Source: an uncultured Magnetospirillum sp.
Lineage (GTDB): Bacteria > Pseudomonadota > Alphaproteobacteria > Rhodospirillales > Magnetospirillaceae
DNA length: 64,000 bases
Assembly (NCBI RefSeq): GCF_903853455.1
Contig: NZ_CAINTR010000170.1
Span: 1 to 64,000, forward strand
Reading direction: 5' to 3'
Shown here piece after piece: positions 22,457 to 63,680 of the stretch (its first letter is position 1; every line of letters begins with the position of its first letter). Both the position numbers and the translations under genes were made by a program. Under the pieces are notes generated by a model. The model was not told the DNA's origin. It did not search any database and saw only the letters and a program-made list of their open reading frames with translations.

Positions 22457-22482
22457 GGTCGGATGAAATCGTTCATCCGACC
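22457..22482. promoter_or_regulatory. Perfect 11-bp inverted repeat upstream of cytochrome b561
   Basis: GGTCGGATGAA and TTCATCCGACC are exact reverse complements with a four-base loop, ATCG. The repeat lies 14 bases upstream of the minus-strand cytochrome b561 start and abuts the next repeat element on its right. It may be an operator, a 5'-UTR hairpin, or the outer stem of that repeat element. Confidence 0.45.
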
Positions 22483-22562
22483 GGAGGCAAGGCCGAGGGC
22501 CGCCGCCACGCGTGTGGCGAAAGCCAAGGGATGCGCAGCCATCCCGCCCGGCGATTGAGGGG
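22482..22562 (+). repeat. Intergenic structured element, copy A (GCCAAG-hairpin-CGCCCGGCGA)
   Basis: Contains GGAGGCAAGGCCG, a hairpin GCCAC/GTGGC, then GCCAAG (22523-22528), a stem GGATG/CATCC (22529-22533 with 22540-22544), the box CGCCCGGCGA (22545-22554) and TTGAGGGG. Copies B, C and D share the boxes, but each has a different stem sequence that still pairs. Confidence 0.7.
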
Positions 22563-22573
22563 CAAGCAAGGGA

Positions 22574-23185
22574 TTACGGCTGGCGGATGAATTCGCCGCT
22601 GATGGTCAGCGTCACTTCGTCGCCCACCATCGGCGCGGCGTAGCTGACGCCGAAGTCGGTCCGCTTCAGCTTGGCGGTGGCGTTGAAGCCGATCTCGTAG
22701 TTCTTGCTCATGGGATTGACGCCGCCGCCGTTGAAGGTGGTGTCCAGCGTCACCGCCTTGGTCACGCCGTGCAGGGTCAATTCGCCGGTGACCTTGCCGG
22801 TGGTGGGGCCGGTGACCTCGATGGCGGTGCTCTTGAAGGTGGCGGTGGGGAACTTGGCGACGTCGAACATCTCGGCCGACTTCATATGGGCGTCCAGCTT
22901 GGGCACGAAGGTGTCGATGTGGTCCAGGTTGACGGTGACGTTCAGGGCGCTCTTGGCGGGGGCCTTGGGATCGAAGTCCAGCTTGGCGTCGAAGTCGCTG
23001 AACAGACCGTAGGAGGTGGAGAAGCCGAGATGGTTGAACGAGAAGATCACCTTGGCGTGGTTCTTGTCCACGGCGAAGTGGCCGCCTTCGACGGTGGCGA
23101 GGTCGGTGGAGGCCGCCGAGGCCGGAGTGGCGGCGGCAAGGGCGAAGACGACGGCGGCGGCAAAGGCGAAGGGCGCGGACTTCAT
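22574..23185 (-). CDS. YceI-family periplasmic protein (copy 2)
   Basis: A 203-residue protein with a signal peptide ending TPASA-AS. The body reads FAVDKNHAKVIFSFNHLGFS near residue 37, then FDAKLDFDP, LTLHGVTKAVTLD and KRTDFGVSYAAPMVGDEV. These are typical of the YceI barrel and closer to the Escherichia coli type than the first copy. It is separated from the cytochrome b561/YceI pair by a repeat element, so it is probably its own transcript. Start at 23185 by the signal peptide. Confidence 0.9.
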   Translation of the reverse strand: MKSAPFAFAAAVVFALAAATPASAASTDLATVEGGHFAVDKNHAKVIFSFNHLGFSTSYGLFSDFDAKLDFDPKAPAKSALNVTVNLDHIDTFVPKLDAHMKSAEMFDVAKFPTATFKSTAIEVTGPTTGKVTGELTLHGVTKAVTLDTTFNGGGVNPMSKNYEIGFNATAKLKRTDFGVSYAAPMVGDEVTLTISGEFIRQP

Positions 23186-23297
23186 GGTGGGAACCTCGTG
23201 AATAGGGAGAGTTGGCGGAAGTCTATACGTGAACCACTGTGGGACAATTAGGCATGATCGAAACATATTGTTTCGTCATGCGAGACAGCCAGGGCGC

Positions 23298-23693
23298 TCA
23301 CGCGATCTGGCCGTTGAGATGAAGATGAAAGGCGTGGTCGTCGGTGCGGATGTGATCGACCAGCCACTGCTTGAGCAGCAGCAAATCGGCCGAGATGGTG
23401 GAAAGTTCGCCCGAGGCGAAATCCGCCGTGACGCGGCGGGACTGTTGCATCAGCTTGTCGTGGGCGGCCTCGTGGGTGCCGATCTCGGGGTAGGCGTACA
23501 GCCGCATCAGCAGCTGTTCCGACATGAAGTGAACGTTGGTGTAGTCCACCAGCTGATACAGGATCGCCCGCAGCTGATCGTGGCTCTTGCCCAGGGCCAA
23601 TCCCTGCTCCAAGGCGAGGATCAGGCCCATCTGCACCTGGTGTTCGCGGTCCATGCCGGTGTTTCCGGCATCGAGATCGCTGTCTTGAGCCAT
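23298..23693 (-). CDS. Haemerythrin-like diiron protein
   Basis: A 131-residue four-helix protein with DREHQVQMGL, NVHFMSEQLLMRL, HEAAHDKLM and WLVDHIRTDDHAF. These supply most of the expected diiron ligands (HxxxE, HxxxH and HxxxxD patterns). GGGAGGG lies four bases before the ATG. It is more divergent than the haemerythrin at 20306. It may bind O2 or act as a redox-responsive regulator. It forms the right edge of a small block of redox genes. Confidence 0.82.
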   Translation of the reverse strand: MAQDSDLDAGNTGMDREHQVQMGLILALEQGLALGKSHDQLRAILYQLVDYTNVHFMSEQLLMRLYAYPEIGTHEAAHDKLMQQSRRVTADFASGELSTISADLLLLKQWLVDHIRTDDHAFHLHLNGQIA

Positions 23694-23942
23694 GGTTCCC
23701 TCCCTGCCGACCCGTTGCAGATATCTGGCCACGGCAAGGCAGGGTTTCAATGGGCGGAGGGTTTGCTCCAATTGGTCAAATAGCGGTCGAGGGCGGCAAT
23801 AAGCTCGATCAGAAGATACAAAGGCCCCTCCTGCGGGCGATGGTGCGGCGCAGCATAAATAAACAGGAGCGCTGGGATTTTCGTATGCAATGACCGCTCC
23901 CCACCCATGCAGGGTGGGAAATAGCAACCCGAAAGGGCTGGT

Positions 23943-25946
23943 TCAGACCTTTTTGTGAGGGCGTTTGGTGGAATGACGGCGGCTGCCGTCGTCGGGTGGC
24001 GGCAGCAGGATCGGTCGGCGCGGCAGAGTCTGCGCGTCCATGGCCCGCTCGATCAACTGGGCGGTGGCCAGCACTTCCGCCAGTTTGGCCCGCAGCATCT
24101 CCGTCGACAGGGCGGTGTCGTCCGATGGCCCGGCCGTCCGCTTCCTGCGCGGAGACGGCGACAGGGCACCGGCGCCGGCGGTGATGAAGGCATCGACCCA
24201 TTCGTCCAGCTTGGACTCGCGGATGCCCAGCGTGGCGGCGACGGAGGCTGCCGATTCGCCGCGCAGGACCTTGAGGACCGATTGGCGCTTGATCGCCTGG
24301 GTGATGGGGATGCGCTTGGATTTGGGCACCACCGTCAGGGCGGTGACCGACGCCTTGGCTTCGGCGGGCGGCGACGGCGGCCGTGCCGGTGGAATGACGA
24401 TCCGGCCGGTGGCGGTGGGCATGGGGGGCTTGGGAGCCGCGGCCGGCTGACCCGGTGGCGGCAGGGTGATCCGGCCGGTGACGGTGGTGGCGGTGGGCGT
24501 CGCGGCGGCCGGTGGCGGCGGCGCAGCCTGGGCCAGGACCGGCAGCGGGTTCATGGCGACACTCGGCAGCGGCGCCCGTGATCCGGGCGGAAGCTGCCGG
24601 GCGGCGGTGCCGACCATGGGCGGAACCTCGCGGGTGGCGACGGTGCCGATCCCGCCGGGGCTTTGGAACGGCGGCGTGCCGGACCTCAGGTGTTGGCTGG
24701 GCGCGATGGCGCGGCGGCCGGTCGGGGGGGCGGCGATCTGCTGCCGTGGCGGCGCGAGGGGGGGCGGCGCGAGGGGAGCTGGCACCGGCGCGGCTTGTAC
24801 CGGCGCGACCGCCGCTGCCATGGCCGCGATCTCCGCTTCGGTGGCGGGGCGCCGGACCGGCGTGATGCGGGCGAGAGGCTGCTCCGCTTCCGCCGGATTG
24901 GCGGGGGGCGGCGGCTGCAGCTTCTCGGCGATCTTCTTCACCTCCTCGAGGGCGGTGGTGGCCGCCTCGATGATGGGAGGGTAGCCATGGCTGGCGGCGA
25001 CGCGGTCGAGCAGCGTCCGGTTCGCCTCCACCGTGGCGAGGGTGTCGGCGCCACGGCCGCCGGCATCCTGGACGAATTTGCGCATGCGATGAGGGATGCG
25101 GCGCAAGATGCCCTGGCGGCGATTGGACAGGACCTTGAAGTTCAGGACGTCGCACAAGATGTCGGAGTGGCGGGCGGGCGGCAGCGATTCGAACAGGAAC
25201 TCGATCAGTTCGACCTCGCCGAACTCCAGGCACAGGAAGGTTTGCTGGCTTCTCTGCCAATTGGTGATGAATTGAGAGACCGCCGCCAGCTGCGCCGCCA
25301 TCTCGTCCTCGAACATCACCGGGTCGAGCATGCGCCAGGCGCGGACCGTCGCCAGCGGCAGATGGGCGGGGGTTCCGAAACGGTCGGCCAGGTGCCGGGC
25401 GACAGCCAGCAGGGCGCGACTGCTCTGGGCGTCGGCTCCCAGCGAGGCGAAGCAATCCCTCACCATGTCCGCGACCTTGAAGTCGTTGGCCGGCGGCGGC
25501 GTGCTCAGCAGCACCGCCAGGGCGGCCGTGTCGTCGGGCCGAGTGTCGTGGCCCTTGGCGGGCATGTTCGCCATGGCCCGCTCGACGACGGCCGCCACTT
25601 CGTCGGCGGGCATGGCCGCCGACGCTGTCGGCGCGGGCTTGGCCGGAGGGGCGTGGAAGACGCCGTCGGCAAGGCGGCCGTGGCTGGGGGCTTCGGGGTG
25701 CAGGGTGACAAGCCGCGCCATGGCCGACCCCGGGCGGCGGCGCAGACGACCAAGCAATCCGACGCCGAGGACCAATCCTTCGATCACCAGGATCGCGGCA
25801 CGGCCAAGGGCGGTCAGGCCGCCCGAGACGACGGCCGTCGCCGTCATGACCAGGACGAGCAGGGGAGCCCATATCCAGACGCCGAAACCGGTGGGATGGG
25901 CGACATCCGCCAGGCGTTCCGCCGCCGGTGACAGGTTCGGCGCCAT
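23943..25946 (-). CDS. Membrane protein with long Pro/Ala-rich region and C-terminal helix-turn-helix-like segment
   Basis: A 667-residue protein of no family I recognise. Residues 20-65 hold two membrane segments. Residues 115-310 form a helical domain (DILCDVLNFKVLSNRRQGIL, HRMRKFVQDAGG). Residues 330-540 are low-complexity Pro/Ala/Thr with repeated VTGRI and ATGRI motifs. Residues 555-600 read IKRQSVLKVLRGESAASVAA and LGIRESKLDEWVDAF, very like a transposase-type helix-turn-helix. No ribosome site is seen before the ATG, so the start is uncertain. It could tether a DNA-binding or oligomerising head to the membrane, but that is speculation. Confidence 0.7.
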   Translation of the reverse strand: MAPNLSPAAERLADVAHPTGFGVWIWAPLLVLVMTATAVVSGGLTALGRAAILVIEGLVLGVGLLGRLRRRPGSAMARLVTLHPEAPSHGRLADGVFHAPPAKPAPTASAAMPADEVAAVVERAMANMPAKGHDTRPDDTAALAVLLSTPPPANDFKVADMVRDCFASLGADAQSSRALLAVARHLADRFGTPAHLPLATVRAWRMLDPVMFEDEMAAQLAAVSQFITNWQRSQQTFLCLEFGEVELIEFLFESLPPARHSDILCDVLNFKVLSNRRQGILRRIPHRMRKFVQDAGGRGADTLATVEANRTLLDRVAASHGYPPIIEAATTALEEVKKIAEKLQPPPPANPAEAEQPLARITPVRRPATEAEIAAMAAAVAPVQAAPVPAPLAPPPLAPPRQQIAAPPTGRRAIAPSQHLRSGTPPFQSPGGIGTVATREVPPMVGTAARQLPPGSRAPLPSVAMNPLPVLAQAAPPPPAAATPTATTVTGRITLPPPGQPAAAPKPPMPTATGRIVIPPARPPSPPAEAKASVTALTVVPKSKRIPITQAIKRQSVLKVLRGESAASVAATLGIRESKLDEWVDAFITAGAGALSPSPRRKRTAGPSDDTALSTEMLRAKLAEVLATAQLIERAMDAQTLPRRPILLPPPDDGSRRHSTKRPHKKV

Positions 25947-26341
25947 GGCGGAGCGGCGGGCGCGGTCCCCGGTCCGCCGCGGCTGAAGCGGGTCGCGCCC
26001 TTCCGCCCAGTGCAGCCGGTATGCCTGGTAGCGGGGGGGGGGACGTGCGTTTCATGTCGCCTTTGATACGCATCCGCTCAATATGACCTACAATCGCTGG
26101 AGGATGCAACCTAGTCAGGAGGCTTGGTCCTGCTCGTTGAATCCGCCTTAAGTCGTCACGGAAGACGCGATCTCGGCATCCTGGCAGACGACGGCCAAGA
26201 CATAATCTCGATCAGACAAGACTTCCATGCTCCGGCCGATGTCCATCTCCCCGGATTCGATTGTGGCCGATCCTGCCGGTCCGATGGTTGATGCTTTCTG
26301 TCATCATATGTTAATCTGTCGGGGACGCTTGGGGACGGAAA
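25947..26341. other. 395-bp intergenic region with a G10 tract
   Basis: This region lies between divergently transcribed genes and has no convincing reading frame. A run of ten G (26033-26042) sits about 90 bases upstream of the minus-strand gene. The right part (26100-26330) has mixed composition and should hold the promoter of the PhnD-like/kinase pair. No clear -35/-10 was identified. Confidence 0.45.
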
Positions 26342-27202
26342 ATGGTCGCGCGGGTCGCGGGGAAACTCTGCTTTGTCGTTTTGGTTTTGATCGCGCTGGT
26401 TCTGCCGGCGCGGGCCATGGCGGTGGACGACATGCGGCCGGTACGGGTCGGGCTGTTGCCCACCGTCGCCACCCTCAGCCTGCTGCGGCTTTACGACCCG
26501 TTGCGGCTTCATTTGCAGCAGGCGCTGGGGCGGCCGGTGGAGCTTTATACCTCCGCCAATTTCCGCGCCTATGTGGACGACATCGCCAGCCAGGAATTCG
26601 ACGTCCTGGTCACCGCGCCGCATTTCGGGGTGATGGCGGTGGACCTGGGCTATGTGCCGCTGGTCCGCTACAAACCGGAACTCCGGCCCATGGTCATCGT
26701 CATCAAGGGCAGCCCCATCACCCAGGCGGGACAGCTGGCCGGCAAGCGGGTGCTGACCGCCAACCGGCTGGCGGCGCTGTCGGTGGTGGCGGAGCGCTGG
26801 CTGGAGCAAGATTACGGCATGATCGCCGGGCGGGACTACGCCCTGGTGGACGCCTCCAACCATTCCACCGGGATCCGGGCGGTGGTCATGGGCGACGCCG
26901 ACGCCGTCTTCAGCGCTCAGTCGGCGTTGCGGCAGATGCCGCCCGAGATCCGCGACAAGGTCGACAACTTCGAAAGCCGCCTGTCGATCCCGCATCAGTT
27001 CACCCTGGCCCATCCCCGCCTGGGGGTCGATACCATCGCGGCGCTGCGCGCCGCCCTGGCCGCCTTTCCCGACACCGCCCGGGGCAAGGCCTTTTTCGCG
27101 GCCGGGGGGTTCCAGGGCTACATCGCCTTGACCGCGGCCGACGTGGAAGAAGCCCGCCCCTACGCCGAACTGGTCGCCAAGACCATCCGGAGCGCGCCAT
27201 GA
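26342..27202 (+). CDS. PhnD/SsuA-type periplasmic binding protein
   Basis: A 286-residue protein with a signal peptide (CFVVLVLIALVLPARAMA). The mature protein reads VRVGLLPTVATLSLLRLYDP, then FDVLVTAPHFGVMAVDLGYVPL, GKRVLTANRLAALS and VVMGDADAVFSAQSALR. This is the layout of phosphonate/phosphite-type binding proteins (PhnD-like, PF12974). The ligand is unknown. The stop overlaps the start of the histidine kinase gene (ATGA), so the two are coupled; the protein probably acts as a sensory subunit and not as part of a transporter. Confidence 0.85.
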   Translation: MVARVAGKLCFVVLVLIALVLPARAMAVDDMRPVRVGLLPTVATLSLLRLYDPLRLHLQQALGRPVELYTSANFRAYVDDIASQEFDVLVTAPHFGVMAVDLGYVPLVRYKPELRPMVIVIKGSPITQAGQLAGKRVLTANRLAALSVVAERWLEQDYGMIAGRDYALVDASNHSTGIRAVVMGDADAVFSAQSALRQMPPEIRDKVDNFESRLSIPHQFTLAHPRLGVDTIAALRAALAAFPDTARGKAFFAAGGFQGYIALTAADVEEARPYAELVAKTIRSAP

Positions 27203-28980
27203 GCCTCTATCCCTCGTCGGTCCGGCCGCTTCAATCCCTGCGCCTGCGCTTGCTGATGGTCAGCGTCGTGGTCGAGATGGTGATGCTGACCCTGCTGGTC
27301 GCCAACGGCGCCCGCCTGATCCACGACCATCTGACGCGCAACACCATGGTTCGGCTGGCGGCGCAGGAAGCCTCGTTCAACATCACGCTGGCGGGGCAGT
27401 TGGCCGAGCGCGACTACGCCTCGATCCAGAGCATTCTCGAAGGCTGGAGCGCCGGCAAGAGCATCACCTACATGCTGGTGGTCGATGCCGCCGGGCGGGT
27501 GGTGGCCTTCACCGGCCGCAATCCGACCGAGCCGCTGCTGGAGCCCGATCCGGGGCTGGACGACGACGCCAAGGTCTATAACGGCGCCTTCGACATCACC
27601 TTCCTGGGGCAGCGTTACGGCCGCGCCCATTACGGCCTCGACACCGCCTTCCTCGGCGAGGCGCGGCGCGAGCTGATCCAGCAAAGCGTCGGTATCGCCG
27701 TGGTCGAGGTGGTGCTGACCCTGGGATTGCTGGCCGCCATCGGCTATTGGCTGACCCGTCATCTCGGGCTGTTGACGCGGGCGTCGCTGCGGGTGGCCGG
27801 CGGCGATTTCTCCCGGCGGCTGGAACCCAAGGGCCACGACGAGATTTCGGTTCTGACCCGGGCCTTCAACACCATGGCCGGCGCGGTCGATTCACGGATT
27901 TCCGAGTTGGAGGACAGCCAGCGGCGGTTCCGCGCCATCGCCGACTACACCTATGCCTGGGAGAACTGGTTCGACGTGGACGGCCGGCTGCGCTGGGTCA
28001 ACCCGGCGGTGGAGCGCGTCACCGGCTACAGCGTGGCGGACTGCCATGCCATGGCCGACTTTCCCCTGCCGCTGGTGGCCGACGACGACCGGGCGCGCAT
28101 GGAAGGGCATCTGGACGCGGCCAAGGCCGGCGGCTCCGGCCGGGATGTGGAATTCCGGGTGCGGCGGCGCGACGGCGAGGTGATCTGGGTGGCCATGTCG
28201 TGGCAGCCCATCTTCGATCCGGCGGGGGGGGCGCTGGGGACGCGCTCCTCCATCCGCGACATCGACCTTCAGAAGCACGGCGCCGACCTGCTGGTGGAGG
28301 CCAAGGCCGAGCTGGAGAGCATGCTGTTCGCCGCCTCGCACGATCTGCAGGAGCCGGTTCGCTACATCCTGTCCTATGCCCAGCGGCTGGAGCGCGATCT
28401 CGGCCTCGACCTGTCCGAGCGGGCGCAAATCAGCCTCCAGATCATTTACGAAGCCGCCGAACAGATGAACCTGCTGGTCAAGGGCCTGACCAACTACAAC
28501 CGCAGCATCCGGTCCATGGTGGCGTTCGCTCCGGTGGACCTGAAGGCCTTGGTCGACCGGGCGGCGGCGGAGTGCTGCTCTCGCGCCGGCGACCGGGTGC
28601 TGGCCTTCGAGATCGGCGCCCTGCCCATTGTTCACGGCGACGCCGCCATGCTGCTGATCCTGTTCGAGAACGTCATCGGCAACGCGGTCAAGTTCGTCCG
28701 TCCCGAGGTGGCGCCGGTGGTCACGATCTCCGCCACGCCCGAGGATCAGGGCTGGCGCGTCGATGTCGCCGACAACGGCATCGGGATCGAGCCGCAGGAT
28801 CTGGAAACGGTGATCCGGCCGTTCTCGCGGCTGCATTCCCGCTCGACCTTCCCCGGCGCCGGCCTGGGTCTGGCCTCGGCCCAGAAAGTGGCCCGGCTGC
28901 ATGGCGGCCGGCTGTGGCTCGATTCGGTGGCCGGCCAGGGAACCACCGTCCATCTGTGGCTGCCGAACGAGGCGGGGTAG
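27199..28980 (+). CDS. Membrane histidine kinase with HAMP and PAS domains
   Basis: A 593-residue protein. TM1 lies near residues 18-40, a periplasmic domain of about 130 residues follows, TM2 is near 165-185, then HAMP (RHLGLLTRASLRVAGGDFSRRLEPKG, with DEISVLTRAFNTMA). A PAS domain runs from WENWFDVDGRLRWVNPAVERVTGYS. The kinase core has FAASHDLQEPVRYILSYAQRL, ENVIGNAVKFV, DNGIGIEPQDLE and GAGLGLASAQKVARLHGG. The SHDLQEPVR motif is the phytochrome/CikA-like HisKA subtype. It is coupled to the PhnD-like gene. No response regulator is adjacent. Confidence 0.92.
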   Translation: MSLYPSSVRPLQSLRLRLLMVSVVVEMVMLTLLVANGARLIHDHLTRNTMVRLAAQEASFNITLAGQLAERDYASIQSILEGWSAGKSITYMLVVDAAGRVVAFTGRNPTEPLLEPDPGLDDDAKVYNGAFDITFLGQRYGRAHYGLDTAFLGEARRELIQQSVGIAVVEVVLTLGLLAAIGYWLTRHLGLLTRASLRVAGGDFSRRLEPKGHDEISVLTRAFNTMAGAVDSRISELEDSQRRFRAIADYTYAWENWFDVDGRLRWVNPAVERVTGYSVADCHAMADFPLPLVADDDRARMEGHLDAAKAGGSGRDVEFRVRRRDGEVIWVAMSWQPIFDPAGGALGTRSSIRDIDLQKHGADLLVEAKAELESMLFAASHDLQEPVRYILSYAQRLERDLGLDLSERAQISLQIIYEAAEQMNLLVKGLTNYNRSIRSMVAFAPVDLKALVDRAAAECCSRAGDRVLAFEIGALPIVHGDAAMLLILFENVIGNAVKFVRPEVAPVVTISATPEDQGWRVDVADNGIGIEPQDLETVIRPFSRLHSRSTFPGAGLGLASAQKVARLHGGRLWLDSVAGQGTTVHLWLPNEAG

Positions 28981-29005
28981 GCGGAGTTTGGAACTGCGCA
29001 GGGCC

Positions 29006-29030
29006 GGCGGAGGATCGAAGACCCTCCGCC
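29006..29030. terminator. Hairpin between convergent genes
   Basis: GGCGGAGG (29006-29013) pairs with CCTCCGCC (29023-29030) in the short gap between the histidine kinase and mrp. It has no strong U-tract, so it is a possible bidirectional terminator rather than a classical one. Confidence 0.5.
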
Positions 29031-29037
29031 GTGGTTG

Positions 29038-30159
29038 CTACTCCATCACGATGCGCGGACCCTTGCGGCCGCCGGCGCCCTGGATGGCCTGGACCTTGTC
29101 CCAGATCTTGGCCGCGATGTCGCGGTAGGCCTTGGCGTGGGGGCCGTTGGGCTTGGACACCACGATGGGCTCGCCGGCATCGGAGGTCTGGCGGATGGCG
29201 ATGTCCAGCGGGATCTCGCCCAGGAACTCGGTGGACAGCCGCGCCGCTTCGGCCTTGGCGCCGCCATGGCCGAAGATATGGGCCTCGTCGCCGCATTTGG
29301 GGCAGATGTAATAGCTCATGTTCTCGATGATGCCGAGCACCGGCACGTCCACCTTGCGGAACATGTTCAGGCCCTTGGTGGCGTCCAGCAGGGCGATGTC
29401 CTGCGGTGTCGAGACAATGACCGCGCCGGTCAGCGGCACCCGCTGGGTTATGGTCAGTTGGGTGTCGCCGGTGCCGGGCGGCATGTCGATCACCATGACG
29501 TCGAGCTCGCCCCAGTGGACGTCGCGCAGCAACTGTTCCAGGGCGCCCATGACCATGGGGCCGCGCCAGATGATCGGCGAGTCCTCGGGCACCAGGAAGC
29601 CCATGGACATGCACTTGACGCCGTAATTCTCCATGGGCAGCAGGCTCTGGCCGTCGGGGCTGACCGGTTCGCCGGTGATGCCCAGCATGCGCGGCATGGA
29701 GGGGCCGAAGATGTCGGCGTCGAACAGGGCGGTCTTGAGGCCCATCTGCGACAGCGCCATGGCCAGGTTGGTGGCGGTGGTGGACTTGCCGACGCCACCC
29801 TTGCCCGAGGCCACCGCGATGATCGCCTTGACGTGGGGCAGCAGCGGCGCTTCCGCCTGTCCCGCGCCGTGACCATGGCCGTGTCCGCCCTTGGGGCCGC
29901 CCTGGACGTTGCGCTCGGCGGTCAGCACCGCCGAAACCGACAGCACTCCCGGCAGATCGTGAACCGCTTTCTCGGCGGCCTTGCGCAGCGGCTCCAGATG
30001 GGGGCCGCGCGAGGCTTCGACCTCGATGGCGAAGGCGACGTGGCCGTTCTTGACGGCGATCCCCGAGACCATGCCGAGGCTGACGATGTCGGCTTTCTTG
30101 TCGGGATCAAGGATGTGCTTCAGCGTCTCGATGATCTGCTGCTCGGTGACCTCGGCCAT
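29038..30159 (-). CDS. mrp: Mrp/ApbC-type Fe-S cluster carrier ATPase
   Basis: A 373-residue protein. The N-terminal MIP18-like domain (residues 1-85) is followed by a Gly/His linker and a P-loop NTPase domain with VASGKGGVGKSTTATNLA, DADIFGPSMPRMLG, VIDMPPGTGD and the CPKC cluster-binding pair near residue 280. It assembles and delivers Fe-S clusters in the cytoplasm. The ATG at 30159 has GAGG six bases upstream and is preferred over the ATG at 30171. The many Fe-S proteins of the Dsr system would be plausible clients, though the gene is a general housekeeping factor. Confidence 0.93.
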   Translation of the reverse strand: MAEVTEQQIIETLKHILDPDKKADIVSLGMVSGIAVKNGHVAFAIEVEASRGPHLEPLRKAAEKAVHDLPGVLSVSAVLTAERNVQGGPKGGHGHGHGAGQAEAPLLPHVKAIIAVASGKGGVGKSTTATNLAMALSQMGLKTALFDADIFGPSMPRMLGITGEPVSPDGQSLLPMENYGVKCMSMGFLVPEDSPIIWRGPMVMGALEQLLRDVHWGELDVMVIDMPPGTGDTQLTITQRVPLTGAVIVSTPQDIALLDATKGLNMFRKVDVPVLGIIENMSYYICPKCGDEAHIFGHGGAKAEAARLSTEFLGEIPLDIAIRQTSDAGEPIVVSKPNGPHAKAYRDIAAKIWDKVQAIQGAGGRKGPRIVME

Positions 30160-30396
30160 GGACGTCCTCATGCTGATGAAAAGGCTTACAAACGTTAGGG
30201 TTTTTGCGACGCTGAATGCTCACAAGCATCACCTCATATATGACGCCCGCCCCGGTTTGCAAAGGCGGAAAGGCTTTGGGAACATTGAAAACGGGTAATC
30301 CGCACCGCCCCGCGTTGCGCGAGGGGGAATCCTGCCCTATGTTCCGAATGGCGGAGAATGCTCCGAGCCCGGACGGACTACGATAGGGGACGATGT

Positions 30397-53039: not shown

Positions 53040-53050
53040 GATCCGATACC

Positions 53051-54171: not shown

Positions 54172-54311
54172 CCCCTCAGTCGCCGGGCGGCGGACCTCCG
54201 TCCGCCTTGGCTTTCGCGCCATGCACGCGCAGGCGTGCAGTCGTATGTTTGCCAGCAAAGCTGGCGAGGCGCGGCAGCCCTTGGCCTTGTCTCCGGGCTG
54301 ACGCCCGTCGG
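54172..54311 (-). repeat. Intergenic structured element, copy B (between dsrA and dsrB)
   Basis: Read on the minus strand: GCCAGC/GCTGGC hairpin, GCACGC/GCGTGC hairpin, GCCAAG (54211-54206), stem GCGGAC/GTCCGC (54205-54200 with 54195-54190), the box CGCCCGGCGA, then CTGAGGGG. It is in the dsr transcript, 50 bases before the dsrB start. The constant boxes match copies A, C and D. Confidence 0.75.
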
Positions 54312-54313
54312 AG

Positions 54314-55734: not shown

Positions 55735-55795
55735 GAGTACGATGATCCAAGTGGATTCTTTAGGGAAGTTGCATGAAAATGCCGCAGGAGGAAAA

Positions 55796-56677: not shown

Positions 56678-56693
56678 AGGCGGAACACCGACG

Positions 56694-56819
56694 AGCCTCG
56701 CTCGGAGGCAAGGCCGACGGCCGCCGCGCCAGCTTCGCTGGCAAATCTATGATTGCACGCCTGCGCGTGCACGGCGCGAGAGCCAAGTCCGCCGGAGGCG
56801 GACGCCCGGCGAATGAGGG
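56694..56819 (+). repeat. Intergenic structured element, copy C
   Basis: GGAGGCAAGGCCGACGGCC, hairpins GCCAGC/GCTGGC and GCACGC/GCGTGC, GCCAAG (56782-56787), stem TCCGCC/GGCGGA (56788-56793 with 56797-56802), box CGCCCGGCGA (56803-56812), then ATGAGGG. It precedes the 74-aa gene by 18 bases. Confidence 0.75.
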
Positions 56820-56837
56820 ACAACCAAAGGAACTTCC

Positions 56838-57062
56838 ATGACTGAAGAGATCAAGCCCCCGCAAGAGACGGTCTCCACCCTGGCCACCATCGCGGCGCCG
56901 TGGAGTCGCGAGATCCTGGCGCAGAAGGTCGAGCACGAGAGCGGCCTCCAGATTCTGCGGCTGCGCATCAAGGAGGGGCGGTCGCGCTTCACCATCATCG
57001 ACCTCGACGCGCCGACGGTGGAGGCGCTGATGGCGGTGATGACCAAGTGGTCAGAGGGGTAG
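56838..57062 (+). CDS. Small protein of unknown function
   Basis: A 74-residue protein with AAGGAA six bases upstream of the ATG. It has no signal peptide or membrane segment. The centre (ILRLRIKEGRSRFTIIDLDA) suggests a small beta-alpha fold. It follows the dioxygenase after a structured repeat and may be co-transcribed with it. I do not recognise the family. Confidence 0.65.
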   Translation: MTEEIKPPQETVSTLATIAAPWSREILAQKVEHESGLQILRLRIKEGRSRFTIIDLDAPTVEALMAVMTKWSEG

Positions 57063-57077
57063 GGAGGAGGCCATTAT

Positions 57078-57207
57078 ACCCCTCCCCCTGGCTTTGCCGG
57101 GGGGAGGTTGGGAGGGGGGCTGTCGCCGTCTGGCGCGACTGCTGAGACTGGGCAATGGGCGGAAACACCCCCACCCCAACCCTCCCCCGCTTCGCGGCGG
57201 GAGGGAG
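57078..57207. repeat. Palindromic repeat (family 2 variant)
   Basis: CCCCTCCCCCTGGCTTTGCC with GGGGGGAGGTTGGGAGGGG, and CCCCAACCCTCCCCCGCTTC with GCGGCGGGAGGGAG, form inverted arms like the CCCTCTCCC family but with shifted stems. It fills the gap between convergent genes. Confidence 0.65.
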
Positions 57208-57210
57208 TGG

Positions 57211-59220
57211 TCAGGGAACCTCCAGCCGCCGGGTCTTTCGTCCCGCGCAGGCCTCGGCCCACATCATCTCATAGGCCCGCTCCAGGTCGCGGACGAAGCC
57301 ATTGGTGTCGAACAGCGGCGCGGTGGCGCGGTTGGCGGCGAGGCGGGCTTTAATCCCGGCCAACTCGTCGGGCTGGGTGGCCAGCCGCACCGCCAATTCC
57401 TCGTAGGCGTCGAGGTCGGGGCAGATCAGGTCGTCCAGCCCCACATTCACCAGCAGGCTGGCCGCCACCCGCGCCGCGAAATTGCGTCCGGGGGCGGTGA
57501 TCACCGGCACTCCGGCCCACAGGGCGTCGCTGGCGGTGGTGTGGGCGTTGTAGAACAGGGTGTCGAGGAACAGGTCGGCGTGGCGGTGCCGCGCCAGATG
57601 ACGGTCCTTGGCCAGGCGGGTGGCGAAGATCAGCCGCTCGGGCGCCACCCCCCGCGCCTCGGCCTCGCGGCGCAGATTGGCCACCATCTCGGGCGAGCCG
57701 CCCAGCAGCCACAGCACCGAGCCCGGCACCCGGTCGAGGATGCGCATCCAGCGGCCGAACATCACCGGCTCGATCTTGAAGGCCTGGTTGAAGCAGCAGA
57801 ACACGAAGGCGCCGTCGGGCAGGGAGCATTCCACCCGGCTGGGGGCGGGCTCGGCGATGATCTGGTCGCGGTCGTTGGGCTGGTAGCAATGGGGCAGCAC
57901 CGCCAGGCGCTCGCAGAAATCGGCCTCAAAGCCCGGCGGGCAGGTCACCGAATCCACCAGCGCCCAATCCATGGCGGCGGCGCCGCTGGACCCCGGCAGG
58001 CCCAGCCAGTTGACCGTCACCGGTGCCGGCCGCAGCGCCGTCAACTGCAAGCGGTTGCCACGGGTATGAACGTTGATGTCCACCAGGATGTCCACCCCGG
58101 CGGCCATGATGGCCTGGGCGGCGTCGGCGGTGTCCAGCGGCCCCAGCTCCAGGAAGACGTCGCTGTTGTCCTGCACGAAGCGGCGGTAATCGCTGCCGTC
58201 GTCGGGCTCCAGCGCCAGCGTCGCCACCTTGAACCGGTCACGGTCATGGGCGGTGAACATGCCGCGCATCAGGTGGGTGGTGGGGTGGTCGTGGAAGTCG
58301 GCCGACAGATAGCCGATGGTCAGCCGCTGGCGCGGGCCCGGCCGGGGCGTTCTGATTCCGGCCTTCAACGGCGTCACCTCGGCCTGGATCGCTTCGGCGC
58401 GTTGGCGGGCGAAGACCAGCAATTCCTTGGGCGACAGCGCGAGCGGGAAGGTCAGCGCCATCAGCGGCCCCACCGCTCCCGGCGTTTTCAGGGCCGGCTC
58501 GATCAGGTCGTGGCGCAGTCCGGCCACGTCTTGCCAGTCGCACACCCCCAGCCGCGCCTCCGCCAGCCGCGCCCGGATGGCGAGGTCTTGGGGCCGAGCG
58601 GCGGCGGCCCGCTGGTAAAAGCCGATGGCGGCGCCGATCTCGCCCAGCTTGCGGGCGGCGTGGCCGGCGCCCAGCAGGGCCTCCGGCATGGCCGGCGCCG
58701 CCGCCAGGGCCTGGTCGAACAACCAGGTCGCCTCGGCCATGGCGCCGGCATCCGACAGCAGGTTGGCCAGATTGGTCAGGGTGGGGGCGGCATGGGGCGC
58801 CAGGGCCAGCGAGCGGCGCAGCAGCTCCTCGGCGTCCTTGCGAAAGCCCTGGGTGACGCGGACCCGGCCCAGGCTGGTCAGCAACTGCCAGGAGTCCGGC
58901 TTGGCGGCGAGGCCGCGCTCGAACGCCTGGGCGGCCTCGGTCCAGCGCCCGGACTCGCCCAGCAGGGTTCCCAGGTTGAGCCAGCCCTCGGCCATGGCCG
59001 GCGCCAGCGCCAGCGCCTTGCGCAGAGCGGTGGCGGCGGCATCGGTCTTGCGGCGGTCCTTGAGGACGCGGGCCAGATTGTAATGGACCATGGGGTTGTC
59101 GGGCAGCAGGCCGGCCAGCTTGCGGCAGGCGGCCTCGGCCTCGGCCAGTTGCCCGGCCCGGTACAGCGTCTCGGAGCGCGTCGCCAGCGCCTCGATATCC
59201 TGGGCTTTCGTCGAAATCAA
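57211..59220 (-). CDS. TPR-containing O-GlcNAc-transferase-like glycosyltransferase (GT41)
   Basis: A 669-residue protein. Residues 5-235 form about six TPR repeats. The catalytic part starts near RLTIGYLSADFHDHPTTHL (about 300) and includes VNWLGLPGSSGAAAMDW, FVFCCFNQAFKIEP and NAHTTASDALWAGVPVIT, the SPINDLY/OGT pattern (PF13844). It probably glycosylates proteins, for example flagellin or surface proteins. The start appears to be TTG at 59220, with AAGGG nine bases upstream, 18 bases after the small membrane protein. Confidence 0.88.
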   Translation of the reverse strand: MISTKAQDIEALATRSETLYRAGQLAEAEAACRKLAGLLPDNPMVHYNLARVLKDRRKTDAAATALRKALALAPAMAEGWLNLGTLLGESGRWTEAAQAFERGLAAKPDSWQLLTSLGRVRVTQGFRKDAEELLRRSLALAPHAAPTLTNLANLLSDAGAMAEATWLFDQALAAAPAMPEALLGAGHAARKLGEIGAAIGFYQRAAAARPQDLAIRARLAEARLGVCDWQDVAGLRHDLIEPALKTPGAVGPLMALTFPLALSPKELLVFARQRAEAIQAEVTPLKAGIRTPRPGPRQRLTIGYLSADFHDHPTTHLMRGMFTAHDRDRFKVATLALEPDDGSDYRRFVQDNSDVFLELGPLDTADAAQAIMAAGVDILVDINVHTRGNRLQLTALRPAPVTVNWLGLPGSSGAAAMDWALVDSVTCPPGFEADFCERLAVLPHCYQPNDRDQIIAEPAPSRVECSLPDGAFVFCCFNQAFKIEPVMFGRWMRILDRVPGSVLWLLGGSPEMVANLRREAEARGVAPERLIFATRLAKDRHLARHRHADLFLDTLFYNAHTTASDALWAGVPVITAPGRNFAARVAASLLVNVGLDDLICPDLDAYEELAVRLATQPDELAGIKARLAANRATAPLFDTNGFVRDLERAYEMMWAEACAGRKTRRLEVP

Positions 59221-59238
59221 AGTGATCGGGCCCTTCGA

Positions 59239-59583
59239 TCAGCCTCTGCTCGGGCGTGACGGCGCTCCGCCGCGTGCCGGCGGCGCGCCGGGGGGCGGAC
59301 CGGACGGACGAGCGGCGGGGATGGAATCCTCGTTGTCCTCCTCGACCACCCGTTGACGGATGACGAATCCCTGCATGGCCCAGCCGACCAGATAGCCGAC
59401 CGCGATGGGGCACCACACCCCCGACAGCGCGAAGACGATGGCGCGGTGGATGGCCTCGTCGGCGAAGCCGAAGCTGCCCAAGGCCCACAGCATGGGGGCG
59501 GAAAACAATACACCGGCCGCGCCGGCCAGTCCCAGGCGGGTCCAGCCGCTGGCCTTGATGAACGATACCCGGTATGCCGCCAT
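59239..59583 (-). CDS. Small membrane protein
   Basis: A 114-residue protein with two membrane segments (LGLAGAAGVLFSAPMLWALG and IVFALSGVWCPIAVGYLVGW) and a Pro/Gly/Arg-rich cytoplasmic tail. AGGGGG lies about nine bases before the ATG. It lies immediately upstream of the TPR glycosyltransferase on the same strand. No family recognised. Confidence 0.65.
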   Translation of the reverse strand: MAAYRVSFIKASGWTRLGLAGAAGVLFSAPMLWALGSFGFADEAIHRAIVFALSGVWCPIAVGYLVGWAMQGFVIRQRVVEEDNEDSIPAARPSGPPPGAPPARGGAPSRPSRG

Positions 59584-59777
59584 CTTGGTTTTCCCCCTGC
59601 GCTTGCACTCATGCCCACCGGAAGCGATTCTCCGCCTTCTTGGCAGCGGGCGCAACAGGTGACATATAGCAAGAAAGAAGTGACAACTTGTATCATTCGC
59701 GGGTATTTCTTTCCGCTGGCGTGGCTTTTGGGGAAAGGCGCGCGACGTTGAATCAGGTCGAATAGGGCGGCACCAGA

Positions 59778-61478
59778 ATGGTCGCGGATCGCGCTAGTTT
59801 CGAAGTACAGGTCTCGAAAGACGGCCGTTGGTCGATGGAAACCATCGTCTACAAAGAAGACGAGGCCCGCGCCCTGGCCAAGAAGTTCCTCGCCGACAAG
59901 AAGTGCGAGGGAGCCAAGATCGTGCGCAATTGGCTGCGCGCCGACGGCACCATGGTCGAGTCGGAAATATTCTGCGAGACCCGCACCGTCAAGGATGACG
60001 GTCCGCTTCACATCACCCCCATCGATTCCGTTCCCGCCGAGAAGTGCGAGACCCCGGAGGATTTCCTGGGCGACGACGCGCGCGGCGTGATGAACCGGGT
60101 GTTCCGCACCTATCTGGACAAGGCGTTCCTGACCCCCACCGAGCTGATGCACTCCTACAAGGAGCTGAAGCGTCTTCAGGACAAGGACACCCTGGTGCCG
60201 TCGGCGGTGGACCGGGTCGCCCAGTTGCAGACCAAGGACGGCGAGCAGGACGCCAAGAGCCGCGGCAAGGAAATCTTCAAGTCCATCGACGACATCTCGG
60301 CCCGGGCGCGGCGGGTGGAAAGCCTGAAACTGCCCAAGCTCGACGGCCATTTCAGCGAGGTGATCGCCAAGCTCGGCGCCATGGGCGAGGGCGAGGACCG
60401 CGACTATCTGGCCATGGTGGTGCTGTCGCGCGACCTGATGAACGTGCGCAACTGGGTCGGCAAGCTGGAGCGGTTGTGCAGTCTGGCGGTCGAGGATCCC
60501 GACCCCCATGCGGTCGAGCTGCTGGACGGCGTCATCGCCGACGTGCTGGGCTCCAACGTGGTGCAGGACGTGCTGGGCTGGCAGCCCGGCCTCGGCGCCG
60601 CCATCGTCGCCATGTTCGACCTCGCCGACGGCAAGATGCCGGCGGTCAAGAGCGACGCCGGCGAATCCGCCGAGGTGCTCAACCGCCTGTTCGCCGAGAA
60701 GAAGCTGCCCATCAGCCGGGGCATCCTGCTGGACCGGGCCCATCGCCAGATCCGTTCGCCCAATCCGCTGTTCCGCAATGAAAGCGAGAAGGAGCTGGAG
60801 GCGTTCAAGCACCTGATCGAGCGGACGCTGTGCCCCACCGGCCTCGTCTGCGGCAGCGAGACCGCCGAGGCGCTGACCATGCGGTGCACCCGCATGGTCG
60901 AGCAAGGCGGCGCCGCCGGCCGCAAGGCGGCCATCGAGATGCTCTACCGCATCATGCCCGATCCCGCCACCGGGCTGGTTTATCTCTGCGAACTGGCCTC
61001 CAGTTCCTTGGCCGCCGAGCACATGGCCGACATCCTGGGAACCATGGAACTGGTGTTCCGGTGCCGGGGAATCTCCGATCTGTGTTTGCGCACTCTGCCG
61101 CCCAAGGACCGGATGCTGCGCGCCACCAACGCCCACCGGGTGGCGATGGCCTCGGTTTTTTCGCAGGAGGTGAAAGCACGGCTGGCCGACTTCATCGACA
61201 CCATCCTCGAGCACTATCTGATCGACGAGCAGATCGTCGAGAAGCTGGACCACCAGGACTCGCCGCTGCGTGACCGCGCCGTTCGGTTGGTTCAGTTCTG
61301 CGCCGCCGGCGTCCTGCCCGAGGGCAAGGCCATGACGCGGGCACGCCATCGCATCCTGATGCTGCTGCGCCAGCCCAATTTCGACGCCCATTTCATCGAC
61401 GGCTTCACCGACCCGCTGCGGGCGCAAAAGGCCTTGCGCGATTTCCACCAGCTGCTGATCAAGGCCGGCTTCGGCTGA
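59778..61478 (+). CDS. Protein of unknown function, large and cytoplasmic
   Basis: A 566-residue protein of no family I recognise. There is no signal or membrane segment. The first 80 residues look like a separate small domain (FEVQVSKDGRWSMETIVYK, KKFLADKKCEGAKIVRNWLR). The rest is mainly helical, with several Cys. It is transcribed alone. A repeat and the convergent K+-channel gene follow. GC and codon use look like the neighbours, so recent transfer is not indicated. Confidence 0.7.
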   Translation: MVADRASFEVQVSKDGRWSMETIVYKEDEARALAKKFLADKKCEGAKIVRNWLRADGTMVESEIFCETRTVKDDGPLHITPIDSVPAEKCETPEDFLGDDARGVMNRVFRTYLDKAFLTPTELMHSYKELKRLQDKDTLVPSAVDRVAQLQTKDGEQDAKSRGKEIFKSIDDISARARRVESLKLPKLDGHFSEVIAKLGAMGEGEDRDYLAMVVLSRDLMNVRNWVGKLERLCSLAVEDPDPHAVELLDGVIADVLGSNVVQDVLGWQPGLGAAIVAMFDLADGKMPAVKSDAGESAEVLNRLFAEKKLPISRGILLDRAHRQIRSPNPLFRNESEKELEAFKHLIERTLCPTGLVCGSETAEALTMRCTRMVEQGGAAGRKAAIEMLYRIMPDPATGLVYLCELASSSLAAEHMADILGTMELVFRCRGISDLCLRTLPPKDRMLRATNAHRVAMASVFSQEVKARLADFIDTILEHYLIDEQIVEKLDHQDSPLRDRAVRLVQFCAAGVLPEGKAMTRARHRILMLLRQPNFDAHFIDGFTDPLRAQKALRDFHQLLIKAGFG

Positions 61479-61481
61479 TAA

Positions 61482-61617
61482 CCCCTCGCCCGCTTGCGGG
61501 AGAGGGAGGGGCCCGCCGCGAAGCGGTGGGAGGGTGAGGGGGCTTCTTTGTTCAGACAGACGAGCCCTCACCCGGCTCGCCATGCTCGCCACCCTCTCCC
61601 GCTTGCGGGAGAGGGGT
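61482..61617. repeat. Palindromic repeat (family 2)
   Basis: Bounded by CCCCTCGCCCGCTTGCGGGA and CCCTCTCCCGCTTGCGGGAG, with GGGAGGGTGAGGG and CCCTCACCCGGCTCGC inside. Same arms as in dsrO and between dsrC and dsrM. It separates two convergent genes. Confidence 0.85.
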
Positions 61618-61623
61618 TAAGCC

Positions 61624-62646
61624 TCACTCTTCCTCGGACCGCTGGTGCTGGCGCAGCGGCTGGTTGCAGTGGGGACAGAGGTGACCGGTCTCCACCGCCT
61701 GACGCAGGATCAGCGCCGCCTCGTCGTCGGACAATTGCAGCGTCCGCCGGGTCTGCTCCAGCAGGCGGCGTTCGTTGCGCTTGAGGCTGCCATCCTCCAG
61801 CGCCTTTTCCACCGCTTCCCGGTATTCCTCGCGGCGAATGCGCATCTGCTCGGAAAAGCCCGAGGCCAACACACCGGCGGGCAGGGCGATCATGCCCACG
61901 CCCAGGATGGCGGTCAGCGCTCCCAGCATGCGGCCCAACAGGGTGATCGGCACCATGTCGCCGTAGCCGAGCGTGGTCAGCGTCACCACCGCCCACCACA
62001 TGGAGGTGGGGATGTCGCTGAAGATGTGGGGCTGGGCGCGGTGTTCGAACAGGTAGATCAGGCTGGAGGCCAGCACCAGGATGACCATCATGACGAACAG
62101 GATGGAGCCGATGGAGCGCGCCTCCTGCCGCGCCACCGCTCCCATCACGCTCATGGCCATGGAATAACGGCCCAGCTTGAACACCCGGAGCACGCGCAGC
62201 ACCCGGATGGCGCGCAGGTCGATCTCGACCACGATGCCCAGATAGAACGGTAGCACCGACAGCAGGTCCACCACCGCCATGGGCGACACCGCCCAGCGCA
62301 GCCGTCCCCACACCGGGTGGCGGTAGCGCGGCTCGTCCATTTCGACCGCCGTCCACAGCCGCAGCAGATATTCGACGCTGAAGATCGCCACCGAAATCAG
62401 GTCGAAGGCGTGGAAGACCGGCCCATGGGCGATGGACAGGTGTTCCACCGATTCCATCACCACCGCCATCACGTTGAGGACCACCAGGGCGATCAGGACG
62501 AAGTCCACCACCTTGACCAGCAGGTCGGAATGGCCTTCCCCGCCCAGCATGTGGTAGACCGTCCGCCGCAACGTCCGGCGGCGGCGGACGTGGCGATGGC
62601 TGGGATGGGGGTGGGGATGGGGATGCGCGGCTGGGGCGATTGTCAC
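61624..62646 (-). CDS. Voltage-gated-type potassium channel
   Basis: A 340-residue ion-transport protein. It has four helices, an S4-like RAIRVLRVLRVFKLGRYS with regularly spaced Arg, and then a pore loop with the K+ filter TLTTLGYGD before the last TM. The N-terminus is His/Pro-rich. The C-terminal tail carries HLCPHCNQPL, half of a zinc-ribbon. GTG at 62646 lacks a clear ribosome site; ATG at 62550 is possible. It probably conducts K+ in response to voltage, as in KvAP-like channels. Confidence 0.88.
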   Translation of the reverse strand: MTIAPAAHPHPHPHPSHRHVRRRRTLRRTVYHMLGGEGHSDLLVKVVDFVLIALVVLNVMAVVMESVEHLSIAHGPVFHAFDLISVAIFSVEYLLRLWTAVEMDEPRYRHPVWGRLRWAVSPMAVVDLLSVLPFYLGIVVEIDLRAIRVLRVLRVFKLGRYSMAMSVMGAVARQEARSIGSILFVMMVILVLASSLIYLFEHRAQPHIFSDIPTSMWWAVVTLTTLGYGDMVPITLLGRMLGALTAILGVGMIALPAGVLASGFSEQMRIRREEYREAVEKALEDGSLKRNERRLLEQTRRTLQLSDDEAALILRQAVETGHLCPHCNQPLRQHQRSEEE

Positions 62647-62800
62647 GGAGCGGCCGGGATTAAAGAGGGATCATCGCCCCACCATATCCGAGCTTCGGCC
62701 CTTTGGGGAAGAGCTGCCGGCACGCGCCGGAATCCGGTGGCGCGGCCGGTCATCTCGTGATCATATTAGCGGTAATTAATAAATAGGGACGGGAGAGGCG

Positions 62801-63580
62801 ATGAGCAAGGTGGGACGAGTCGTCCTGGTCGGCGCCGGTCCGGGCGATCCCGATCTGTTGACCGTCAAGGCGGCGCGCCTGATCCAGGCCGCCGAGGTGG
62901 TGGTCTATGACCGACTGGTCAGCCCGGAAATCATGGCGTTGATTGCGCCGGCCGCCGAGCGGATCTACGCCGGCAAGGCGCTGGGTCACCACCATCTGGT
63001 CCAGGATGAGATCAACGCCCTGCTGGTCGATCTGGCGCAAGCCGGGCGCGACGTGGTGCGGCTCAAGGGCGGCGATTCCTTCATGTTCGGCCGCGGCAGC
63101 GAGGAGGCCCTGCATCTGGCCCGCCACGGCATCGCCTTCGAGGTGGTGCCGGGGATCAGCGCCGCCGCCGGCTGTTCCAGCTATGCCGGCATTCCGCTGA
63201 CCCATCGCGGTCTGGCCACCGGGGTGCAGTTCGTTCCCGGTCATCTGCGCGAAGGCCACCGCCTGGACCTGGACTGGGACAAGCTGGCCGATCCCGACAC
63301 CACCCTGGTGATCTATATGGGCCTGCACTCGCTGCCCGAGACCTCGACCCAGTTGATCGCCGCCGGCCTGCCGGCCGACACCCCCGCCGCCGCCATCGAG
63401 AACGGCACCACGCCGCGCCAGCGCCGGGTGGTCGGCACCCTGGCGACTTTGGTGGAGCTGACCCGCGCCGCCAAGCTGCAAGCCCCCACCCTGATCGTCA
63501 TCGGCCGGGTGGTGTCGCTGGCTGACGAGCTGGACTGGTTTTCCGGCGGGGGGCAGGACACCGAGGGGCCGAGTAAATGA
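62801..63580 (+). CDS. cobA: Uroporphyrinogen-III C-methyltransferase
   Basis: A 259-residue SAM-dependent methyltransferase of the SUMT family: VGAGPGDPDLLTVKAARLIQ at the N-terminus, VYDRLVSPEIM, then RLKGGDSFMFGRGSEEAL and YMGLHSLPET. It makes precorrin-2, the branch point to sirohaem and cobalamin. GGGAGAGGCG precedes the ATG. Sirohaem is the DsrAB cofactor, so this gene fits the sulfur-oxidising neighbourhood. An AT-rich stretch (62758-62790) upstream probably holds the promoter. Confidence 0.95.
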   Translation: MSKVGRVVLVGAGPGDPDLLTVKAARLIQAAEVVVYDRLVSPEIMALIAPAAERIYAGKALGHHHLVQDEINALLVDLAQAGRDVVRLKGGDSFMFGRGSEEALHLARHGIAFEVVPGISAAAGCSSYAGIPLTHRGLATGVQFVPGHLREGHRLDLDWDKLADPDTTLVIYMGLHSLPETSTQLIAAGLPADTPAAAIENGTTPRQRRVVGTLATLVELTRAAKLQAPTLIVIGRVVSLADELDWFSGGGQDTEGPSK

Positions 63581-63581
63581 T

Positions 63582-63680
63582 GCCAGCAAATGCCCGGTCA
63601 GACCTTCTGAGCGGGCGTTTGCTGGCCAGCCGCCATTGCGGCGGCGGCCAAGCGAGCGGATGCTCGCGCCCGGCGAGGGG
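63582..63680 (+). repeat. Intergenic structured element, copy D
   Basis: A long stem, GCCAGCAAATGCCCG with CGGGCGTTTGCTGGC, is followed by GCCAAG (63647-63652), stem CGAGC/GCTCG (63653-63657 with 63662-63666), box CGCCCGGCGA (63667-63676) and GGGG. It starts just after cobA and ends five bases before the next start codon, so its last bases act as the ribosome site. Confidence 0.75.

Follow-up and report, generated by a model that had tools for sequence, protein, structure and literature searches.

The question raised by this stretch of an uncultured Magnetospirillum genome (contig NZ_CAINTR010000170.1, 64,000 nt, referred to as the window) is why four short intergenic sequences should share constant boxes while the hairpin stem between the boxes differs in each copy and still pairs. 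The original prediction, made from the sequence alone, took this pattern as the mark of selection on structure or of an element that copies as a folded unit. Our analysis indicates that the four copies most probably belong to a family of non-autonomous mobile elements of Alphaproteobacteria, which is built as a chain of hairpins and resembles miniature inverted-repeat transposable elements (MITEs). This reading draws on features that were observed directly, namely a high copy number, presence and absence site by site, inverted repeats and TNA flanks (N, any nucleotide) of the full form, near-perfect pairing, and a sharp placement at genes. The family is real, mobile and structured, and it is apparently undescribed in the literature searched, where no published description was recognised in titles and the beginnings of abstracts.

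A high-copy family of hairpin chains

Two covariance models were built. R1 has 110 positions and was built from 18 copies of the genome that holds the window (the source genome, G000), including window copy 1 but not copies 2-4; R2 covers a core of 73 positions and was built from 22 copies, with copies 2-4 again outside the training set. R1 matched the window at 22453-22561 on the plus strand (E-value 2.3e-28), 54173-54310 on the minus strand (8.2e-16), 56689-56819 on the plus strand (3e-13) and 63587-63679 on the plus strand (8.5e-06), the next best match having an E-value of 0.17. With R2 the E-values of copies 1-4 were 7.5e-15, 6.6e-14, 7.4e-13 and 1.5e-07, and the next best was 0.085. The four copies, with the boxes and stems first named for them, are seen in the sequence, and they were the only strong window matches of either model. 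The covariance-model search that had been proposed as a check also returned many further copies in the genome and its relatives.

In the source genome (5.18 Mb), the exact pattern AAAGCCAAG-N6-30-CGCCCGGCGA occurred 55 times, compared with 0 for a reversed control, and all 150 candidates scored with R1 matched (best E-value 3.6e-31, worst 0.0022). The copy number of at least 150 is a lower bound, since scoring covered 150 candidates, among which window copies 3 and 4 do not appear. Elsewhere, R1 matches numbered 90 in G014, 89 in G011, 81 in G001, 59 in G005, 33 in G003 and 28 in G006, and the element was present in 29 of 40 genomes, the source genome included. Its distribution across the class was patchy (23 of 289 genomes, again with the source genome, by R2 with strict filters). 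Among the matches listed, records with paired stems and the tail came from the named Magnetospirillum fulvum DSM 13234, Paramagnetospirillum kuznetsovii LBB-42 and P. caucaseum, and further from Azospirillum sp. B4, from Pontixanthobacter aquaemixtae and from metagenome-assembled genomes (MAGs) of Phaeospirillum. A pattern scan of genome contigs gave 48 sequences with a TGAGG tail among 107 matches listed, 34 of these with a stem of at least 4; the 59 listed matches that lacked the tail, with such a stem in 2, were taken as chance. A blastn search with copy 1 found no match in plasmids. Thirteen matches came from a pattern scan of viral sequences, and 2 were judged real by pairing and context. 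The IMG/VR predicted viral contigs L496 and L493 carry the element, which in L496 is apparently full-length, read up to TTTGGT. In G074 (L505-L518), many copies had equal model scores and near-identical full-length sequences, as after a recent burst.

The element is about 100 nt long, with the chain hp1-hpB-hp2-hp3 of hairpins (hp) set between the constant boxes GAAAGCCAA...GCCCGGCGAYTGAGGG. The short form reads (T)NATACCGA-hp1-CGGAG-hpB-hp2-GAAAGCCAA-hp3-GCCCGGCGAYTGAGGG(A/G)CA and is followed by an A-rich tail. The full-length unit (141-165 nt) reads TACC-hp1-hpB-hp2-GAAAGCCAA-hp3-GCCCGGCGNYTGAGGG-hp4-GGTA with TNA on each side, and its boxes differ between families. The fifth hairpin, hp4, is lacking from most copies in the source genome, where the short form dominates; an hp4-like motif was found in 19 of 113 parsed copies, some of them spurious. 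The hairpins differ in how much they vary. Two versions of hpB alternate (GGCC-AAG-GGCC and GGGC-AAG-GCCC), the hp2 arms of 132 well-paired copies were mostly CGCGCC (73), CGCCGC (26) or CGCGGC (23), hp3 had 25 distinct perfect arms, and hp1, with a stem of 4 bp or longer in 73 of 92 copies and a shorter one in 19, had 57 distinct arms among those 73. Linkage among the six pairings of modules, calculated from 92 copies, was found for hpB-hp3 (p 0.003), hpB-hp1 (0.028) and hp2-hp3 (0.047), with values from 0.065 to 0.69 for the other three. The hairpin modules combine almost freely.

The hp3 loop contains GGA in 110 of 128 copies of the source genome. This motif is known from hairpins bound by CsrA/RsmA, a reading that was set aside because GGA is absent from some hp3 loops of Rhodospirillaceae MAGs. 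Head-to-tail tandem copies with an identical linker were found in the source genome at C145:87806-88013, C109:37995-38272 and C206:14924-15106, and also in L519. In the C145 tandem, hp1 is almost equal in both units and the stems of hp2 and hp3 are different, all of them paired.

Presence and absence at orthologous junctions

When the 4.2-kb piece around copies 2 and 3 was compared with 18 genomes, the best relatives aligned in blocks that skip the elements. The copy-2 junction was without the element in the eight same-genus genomes displayed. In G011, which was the best match of that search, the stop codon at this junction directly adjoins GGAGAAAT, and the site of copy 3 is a 19-nt spacer. 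The comparison covered copies 1-3, and all three were absent from the matching gene junctions in relatives.

The same held for most of the sites that could be matched more widely. With 1.20 Mb of the ~4.2 Mb of G011, both flanks were found for 26 of the 150 copies, one flank for 26 and neither for 98. The source genome was longer by 72-181 nt in 23 of the 26 rows with both flanks, and the copies are therefore mobile or short-lived; judged by eye, 18 of the 26 rows showed no trace of the element in G011. For G014, both flanks of 7 of 30 copies were found in the source DNA examined, that is, the regions around its own copies. Two of these copies were clearly orthologous to those at C216 and C18, each with a paired flip (hpB GGCC/GGCC versus GGGC/GCCC at C216, and one hp2 pair at C18). 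A third lay at the same gap as C183:52821 in reversed orientation, L410 and L417 lay at sites with source copies of doubtful orthology, and L415 and L416 were missing from the source genome.

Inverted-repeat ends and duplication of TNA

Some copies run on past GAGGG into hp4, whose tail (GGTATNA) equals the left border (TNATACC) in reverse complement, and the full-length ends TACC[AG]...[CT]GGTA form terminal inverted repeats. A strict search for these ends in all DNA examined returned 23 rows, at least 4 of which were second starts inside or across a unit. It replaced an earlier lax search, whose 144 rows were mostly spurious by eye (7 identical versus 1.4 expected). TNA stood on both sides in 17 of the 23 strict rows and was identical in 14 of the 17, compared with 4.75 expected, and none of 5000 shuffles was as high. 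Full-length units with the same order of hairpins were found in the source genome, in its family (G074) and in other families of the class (G075, G185).

Inverted-repeat ends together with a 3-bp duplication therefore favour ordinary DNA transposition over the copying of a folded strand. The mobile element at which the original prediction only hinted is thus borne out, and its folded-strand copying is not. A trans-acting cut-and-paste (DDE-type) transposase that cuts at TNA would move the element. The duplication is reminiscent of the 3-bp TNA duplication of part of the IS5 group. In a scan for a parent transposon, the left-end pattern was found in G000, G075 and G185; the other end was sought up to 420 nt ahead in draft assemblies, so that a gene-length unit would read as 'no end', an outcome seen for several left ends.

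Placement at stop and start codons

By orientation relative to their neighbours, 53 copies lay between two same-direction genes, 25 between two opposite-direction genes, while convergent genes flanked 32 and divergent genes 11; a further 23 were placed in a gene and 6 at edges. At two distances the copies were sharply placed. A stop codon stood exactly 3 nt before CGACG in 18 of the 85 copies with a same-direction upstream gene (TAA 8, TGA 6, TAG 4), and a start codon stood exactly 9 nt after GAGGG in 14 of the 64 copies with a same-direction downstream gene (12 ATGA, 1 GTGA, 1 ATGG). Any other stop or start distance occurred at most three times. The GAGGG of the element is placed as a ribosome-binding site would be.

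TAA and TGA stops are TNA sites, so an insertion there would duplicate the stop codon and leave the upstream gene whole. An A-ended tail ahead of TGA would rebuild ATGA, and the GAGGG of the element may act as the ribosome-binding site for the next gene. The stop-duplication step is put conditionally because the TAG stops do not fit it and a duplication was not seen around short forms.

Changing stems with pairing kept

Pairing was scored in two gapless alignments of 22 copies each (A2 and A3), taken from 31 and 28 copies of two hp3 lengths. The copies left out were those in which an insert or a different hpB part occurs, and two whose hp3 is irregular (L185, L282); the copies that were scored had also served for choosing the structure. 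In A2 and A3, 97.7% and 97.9% of cells were paired, whereas shuffles reached 79.3% and 81.7% and slid partners gave 31-48%, and the covariation scores (0.441 and 0.357) were reached in none of 500 shuffles. The 770 cells of A2 and A3 together included 115 two-sided changes, 94 of them flips from G-C to C-G, and a single one-sided change. A further 17 cells were unpaired, 13 of which lay at one outer hpB pair that is not formed in one of the box types.

When all parsed copies were counted without selection, more half-changed cells appeared than in these alignments. This count gave 161 two-sided changes for hp3 (127 copies, length 15-19), beside 6 one-sided and 23 unpaired cells, and for hp2 (140 copies) 92, 8 and 37, or 90, 1 and 5 in the 132 copies with at least 5 of 6 pairs. 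Half-changed stems are therefore rare, not absent. Perfect stems were found in 125 of 140 copies for hp2 and in 110 of 128 for hp3, and stems paired over at least 70% contained 1539 Watson-Crick cells, 8 G.U, 2 A.C and 8 other. A cruder count over all pairs of hp3, which includes positions adjacent to the loop, gave 2890 two-arm versus 596 one-arm differences. Random, non-pairing sequence between the boxes of further copies would have spoken against the original prediction; the other copies mostly pair.

The hairpins would be kept because folding is needed, either for tolerance in transcripts or for recognition. A plainer account, in which the element is in other respects a standard MITE and selection for folding acts on ordinary compensatory point mutations with no special mechanism, comes close to an even chance of accounting for the stems. 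It agrees with the half-changed and unpaired cells that exist (for hp3, 6 and 23 beside 161 two-sided), with the weak linkage of the modules and with the small paired changes in the orthologous copies at C216, C18 and C158. The ratio in A2 and A3, with 94 flips from G-C to C-G among 115 two-sided changes versus 1 one-sided change and 17 unpaired cells, speaks against it, since such a flip requires two transversions via a mismatch. Because half-changed stems are rare, it is probable that in some stems the whole hairpin was rewritten or exchanged at once, in place of gradual drift at single bases.

We tentatively suggest, as a less likely account, that the element consists of exchangeable hairpin cassettes. 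Each hairpin would be rewritten as a unit, by template switching in replication with one arm templating the other, or swapped between copies, and the element would be tuned to stop codons and overlapping stop/start junctions, restoring the stop and supplying the next ribosome-binding site. The larger number of half-changed cells in the unselected count is a point against these cassettes. Pairing may thus be kept by selection, by arm templating or by an exchange of hairpins among copies.

Weighing the mobile element against other explanations

Several observations weigh against a MITE-like family. No transposase was identified, the largest clusters (at least 60% identity) of proteins beside copies having two members. 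The short form is without the right inverted repeat, direct repeats in its flanks were at chance (a shared word of at least 8 in 14 of 150 copies versus ~13 in shuffles), and no clear offset emerged when the surroundings of short forms were scanned for a duplicated TNA; the longest flank repeats were tandem arrays and one site. The TNA flanks were unequal in 3 of the 17 full-length units, and among the 18 stops that form the peak, 4 are TAG, which is not a TNA site. In G011, 8 of the 26 rows were not cleanly empty: five rows (four sites) had a shorter remnant, C158 an orthologous copy with paired changes, C113 an inverted copy, and C99 a remnant of similar length. The gene ends came from a simple caller of our own, and 23 of the 150 copies fell inside a called gene. 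Finally, the number of further pair types in A2 was that of shuffles (13 versus 13.3, reached in 373 of 500) and in A3 barely better (16 of 500), and the mismatches (8 G.U, 2 A.C, 8 other) are too few for proof of an RNA role.

A cis-acting structured RNA (a regulator, terminator or mRNA stabiliser), inherited by descent and reused at many genes, would explain the strong covariation, the sites after stops and before starts with GAGGG at ribosome-binding distance, and the GGA in the hp3 loop. We consider it unlikely, as most copies lie at other genes than in relatives and both orientations occur, including the 25 copies between two oppositely facing genes. Rfam gave no match in the window at gathering scores. 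In 14 loci it gave 9 matches at E-values up to 0.1, none of which overlapped a located copy: one tRNA and one serC leader, both above their gathering scores, and 7 microRNA models that fell together at a single place in L066.

Membership in the CIR repeats of Caulobacter and other Alphaproteobacteria is about as improbable. These share with the element a length of ~110 bp, an intergenic position, an alphaproteobacterial host and two inverted-repeat arms, as far as they are described in excerpts of PMC2229807. The element has more hairpins, four or five rather than the two arms of that partial description, and GANTC is not conserved in it, being found in 15 of 150 short copies, below the density of the flanks (1.09 versus 1.74 per kb), and in 6 of 17 full-length units. 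The comparison was made with the published description of CIRs.

Other known families share parts of this pattern. In general features, in part as given in excerpts of PMC10969869 and PMC2229807, Nezha, Correia and RUP are like the element in being small, non-coding, intergenic and of high copy number, with terminal inverted repeats and a short target duplication. Unlike them, the element has a fixed chain of five hairpins between short ends, freely varying stems and sharp placement at stops and starts, and no parent transposon was found for it in the scan up to 420 nt ahead. Clustered palindromes between genes also characterise the RIME of rhizobia, BIME/REP and Br-REP1 of Bradyrhizobium, although the tested hallmarks of repetitive extragenic palindromes (REPs) and their tyrosine transposases (RAYTs) are absent from the element. 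Br-REP1 is the middle one of three palindromes in the excerpt of PMC5082802.

A REP-type family moved as single-stranded DNA by a Y1 (RAYT) transposase is largely refuted, and we regard it as very improbable. The element does share high copy number, intergenic position, palindromes and both orientations with such families; REP elements are known landing sites of insertion sequences according to excerpts of PMC3733652, as hp4 is here; and a Y1 match was found in 16 of 40 genomes, including G014 with its 90 R1 matches. However, no match to the Y1 transposase (PF01797) was found in the source genome, G011, G005, G001 or G003, with a control search positive in 5 of 14 known genomes, and full-length units have inverted-repeat ends and a 3-bp duplication. 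The element has no GTAG or CGTC head on a single hairpin, whereas CGTC REPs have one stem of 8-9 bp and a tail mostly fitting CCA in the excerpts of PMC3733652. A match to a described REP family would have told against the original prediction; the GTAG and CGTC types misfit on the tested features, and no Rfam match lies over the element.

A retroelement, which a reverse transcriptase would copy by way of RNA, is the least probable explanation and already weak: the structured short form with its A-rich 3' tail, the lack of a duplication seen around short forms and a reverse transcriptase match in 20 of 40 genomes would suit it, but the full-length ends are inverted repeats, and PF00078 had no match at an E-value of 0.001 in the source genome, G011, G005 or G006, which hold at least 150, 89, 59 and 28 R1 matches.

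The window copies and their neighbours

Copy 1 (22453-22561, plus strand) is a whole short form (hp1-hpB-hp2-box-hp3-3' box) by its R1 match, and its site is empty in G011. It lies antisense between two minus-strand genes, for cytochrome b561 and YceI, and starts 29 nt earlier than first noted, with an extra long hairpin. Its hp1, with a 12-bp stem, is at 22456-22483. The R2 alignment places hp2 at 22504-22519, and the alignment and sequence together place hp3, with the stem GGATG/CATCC, at 22528-22545 and the 3' box, GCCCGGCGATTGAGGG, at 22546-22561 (all on the plus strand).

The other three copies end just before genes that run in the same direction, as the original prediction had it, at distances of ~51, 18 and 6 nt for copies 2, 3 and 4. 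Copy 2 (54173-54310, minus strand) lies between two sulfite-reductase-type genes, assigned as DsrA and DsrB by position; the gene ~51 nt after it, DsrB by position, encodes a protein with PF01077/PF03460. Its hp3 (GGCGGAC/GTCCGCC) is at 54189-54206 on the minus strand. Copy 3 (56689-56819, plus strand), which corresponds to a short junction in G011, precedes a DUF6967 gene by ~18 nt and has its hp3 (GTCCGCC/GGCGGAC) at 56787-56803 on the plus strand. The hp3 positions of both follow from sequence and the R2 alignment. Copy 4 is a divergent form on the plus strand, ~6 nt before a CbiX gene (PF01903, the domain being read on the 104 residues within the window). R1 covers it at 63587-63679 and R2 at 63619-63679, and by reading its start was extended to the first long hairpin, which has 15-nt complementary arms (63582-63626, plus strand), so that the copy spans 63582-63679. 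In the R2 alignment its hp3 (GCGAGC/GCTCGC) is at 63652-63667 on the plus strand.

Within hp2 of copies 2 and 3 lies an insert of two hairpins and 43 nt, at 54223-54265 (minus strand) and 56728-56770 (plus strand). It represents a second two-hairpin unit of ~43-45 nt (GCCGGC..GCCGGC, a spacer, GCACGC..GCGTGC), also found at L174, L176, L214, L216, L250, L255, L257, L285 and L286. This unit is an element nested in the hairpin loops of another. It lay inside hp2 or hpB in 11 of 12 matches in the source genome, a share that is biased by the choice of regions around elements, and it had no match in the examined DNA of G011.

An insertion sequence with the ends GTGGACGGCCCC...GGGGCCGTCCAC resides in hp4 of three copies and in a related stretch at C161, always at GAGTCATG (left end in L458, L459, L460 and L461; right end in L190 and L224). 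The start of its protein, a short stretch of 17 residues, is reminiscent of transposases of the IS110 family. The one PF01548 match of the source genome, at C135, belongs to a transposon different from that in hp4.

Implications

Compensatory changes in stems usually count as proof that an RNA is functional. In this case they occur in an element that hops, with few half-way states, and the family can therefore be used to test selection against hairpin-copying mutation. The concerted arms and the placement at stops and starts are likely to be the surprises for a specialist. With named isolates among its hosts and a patchy spread over the class, the family is open to experiment. The placement suggests a route by which mobile DNA may become harmless, by inserting at stop codons and supplying a ribosome-binding site of its own.

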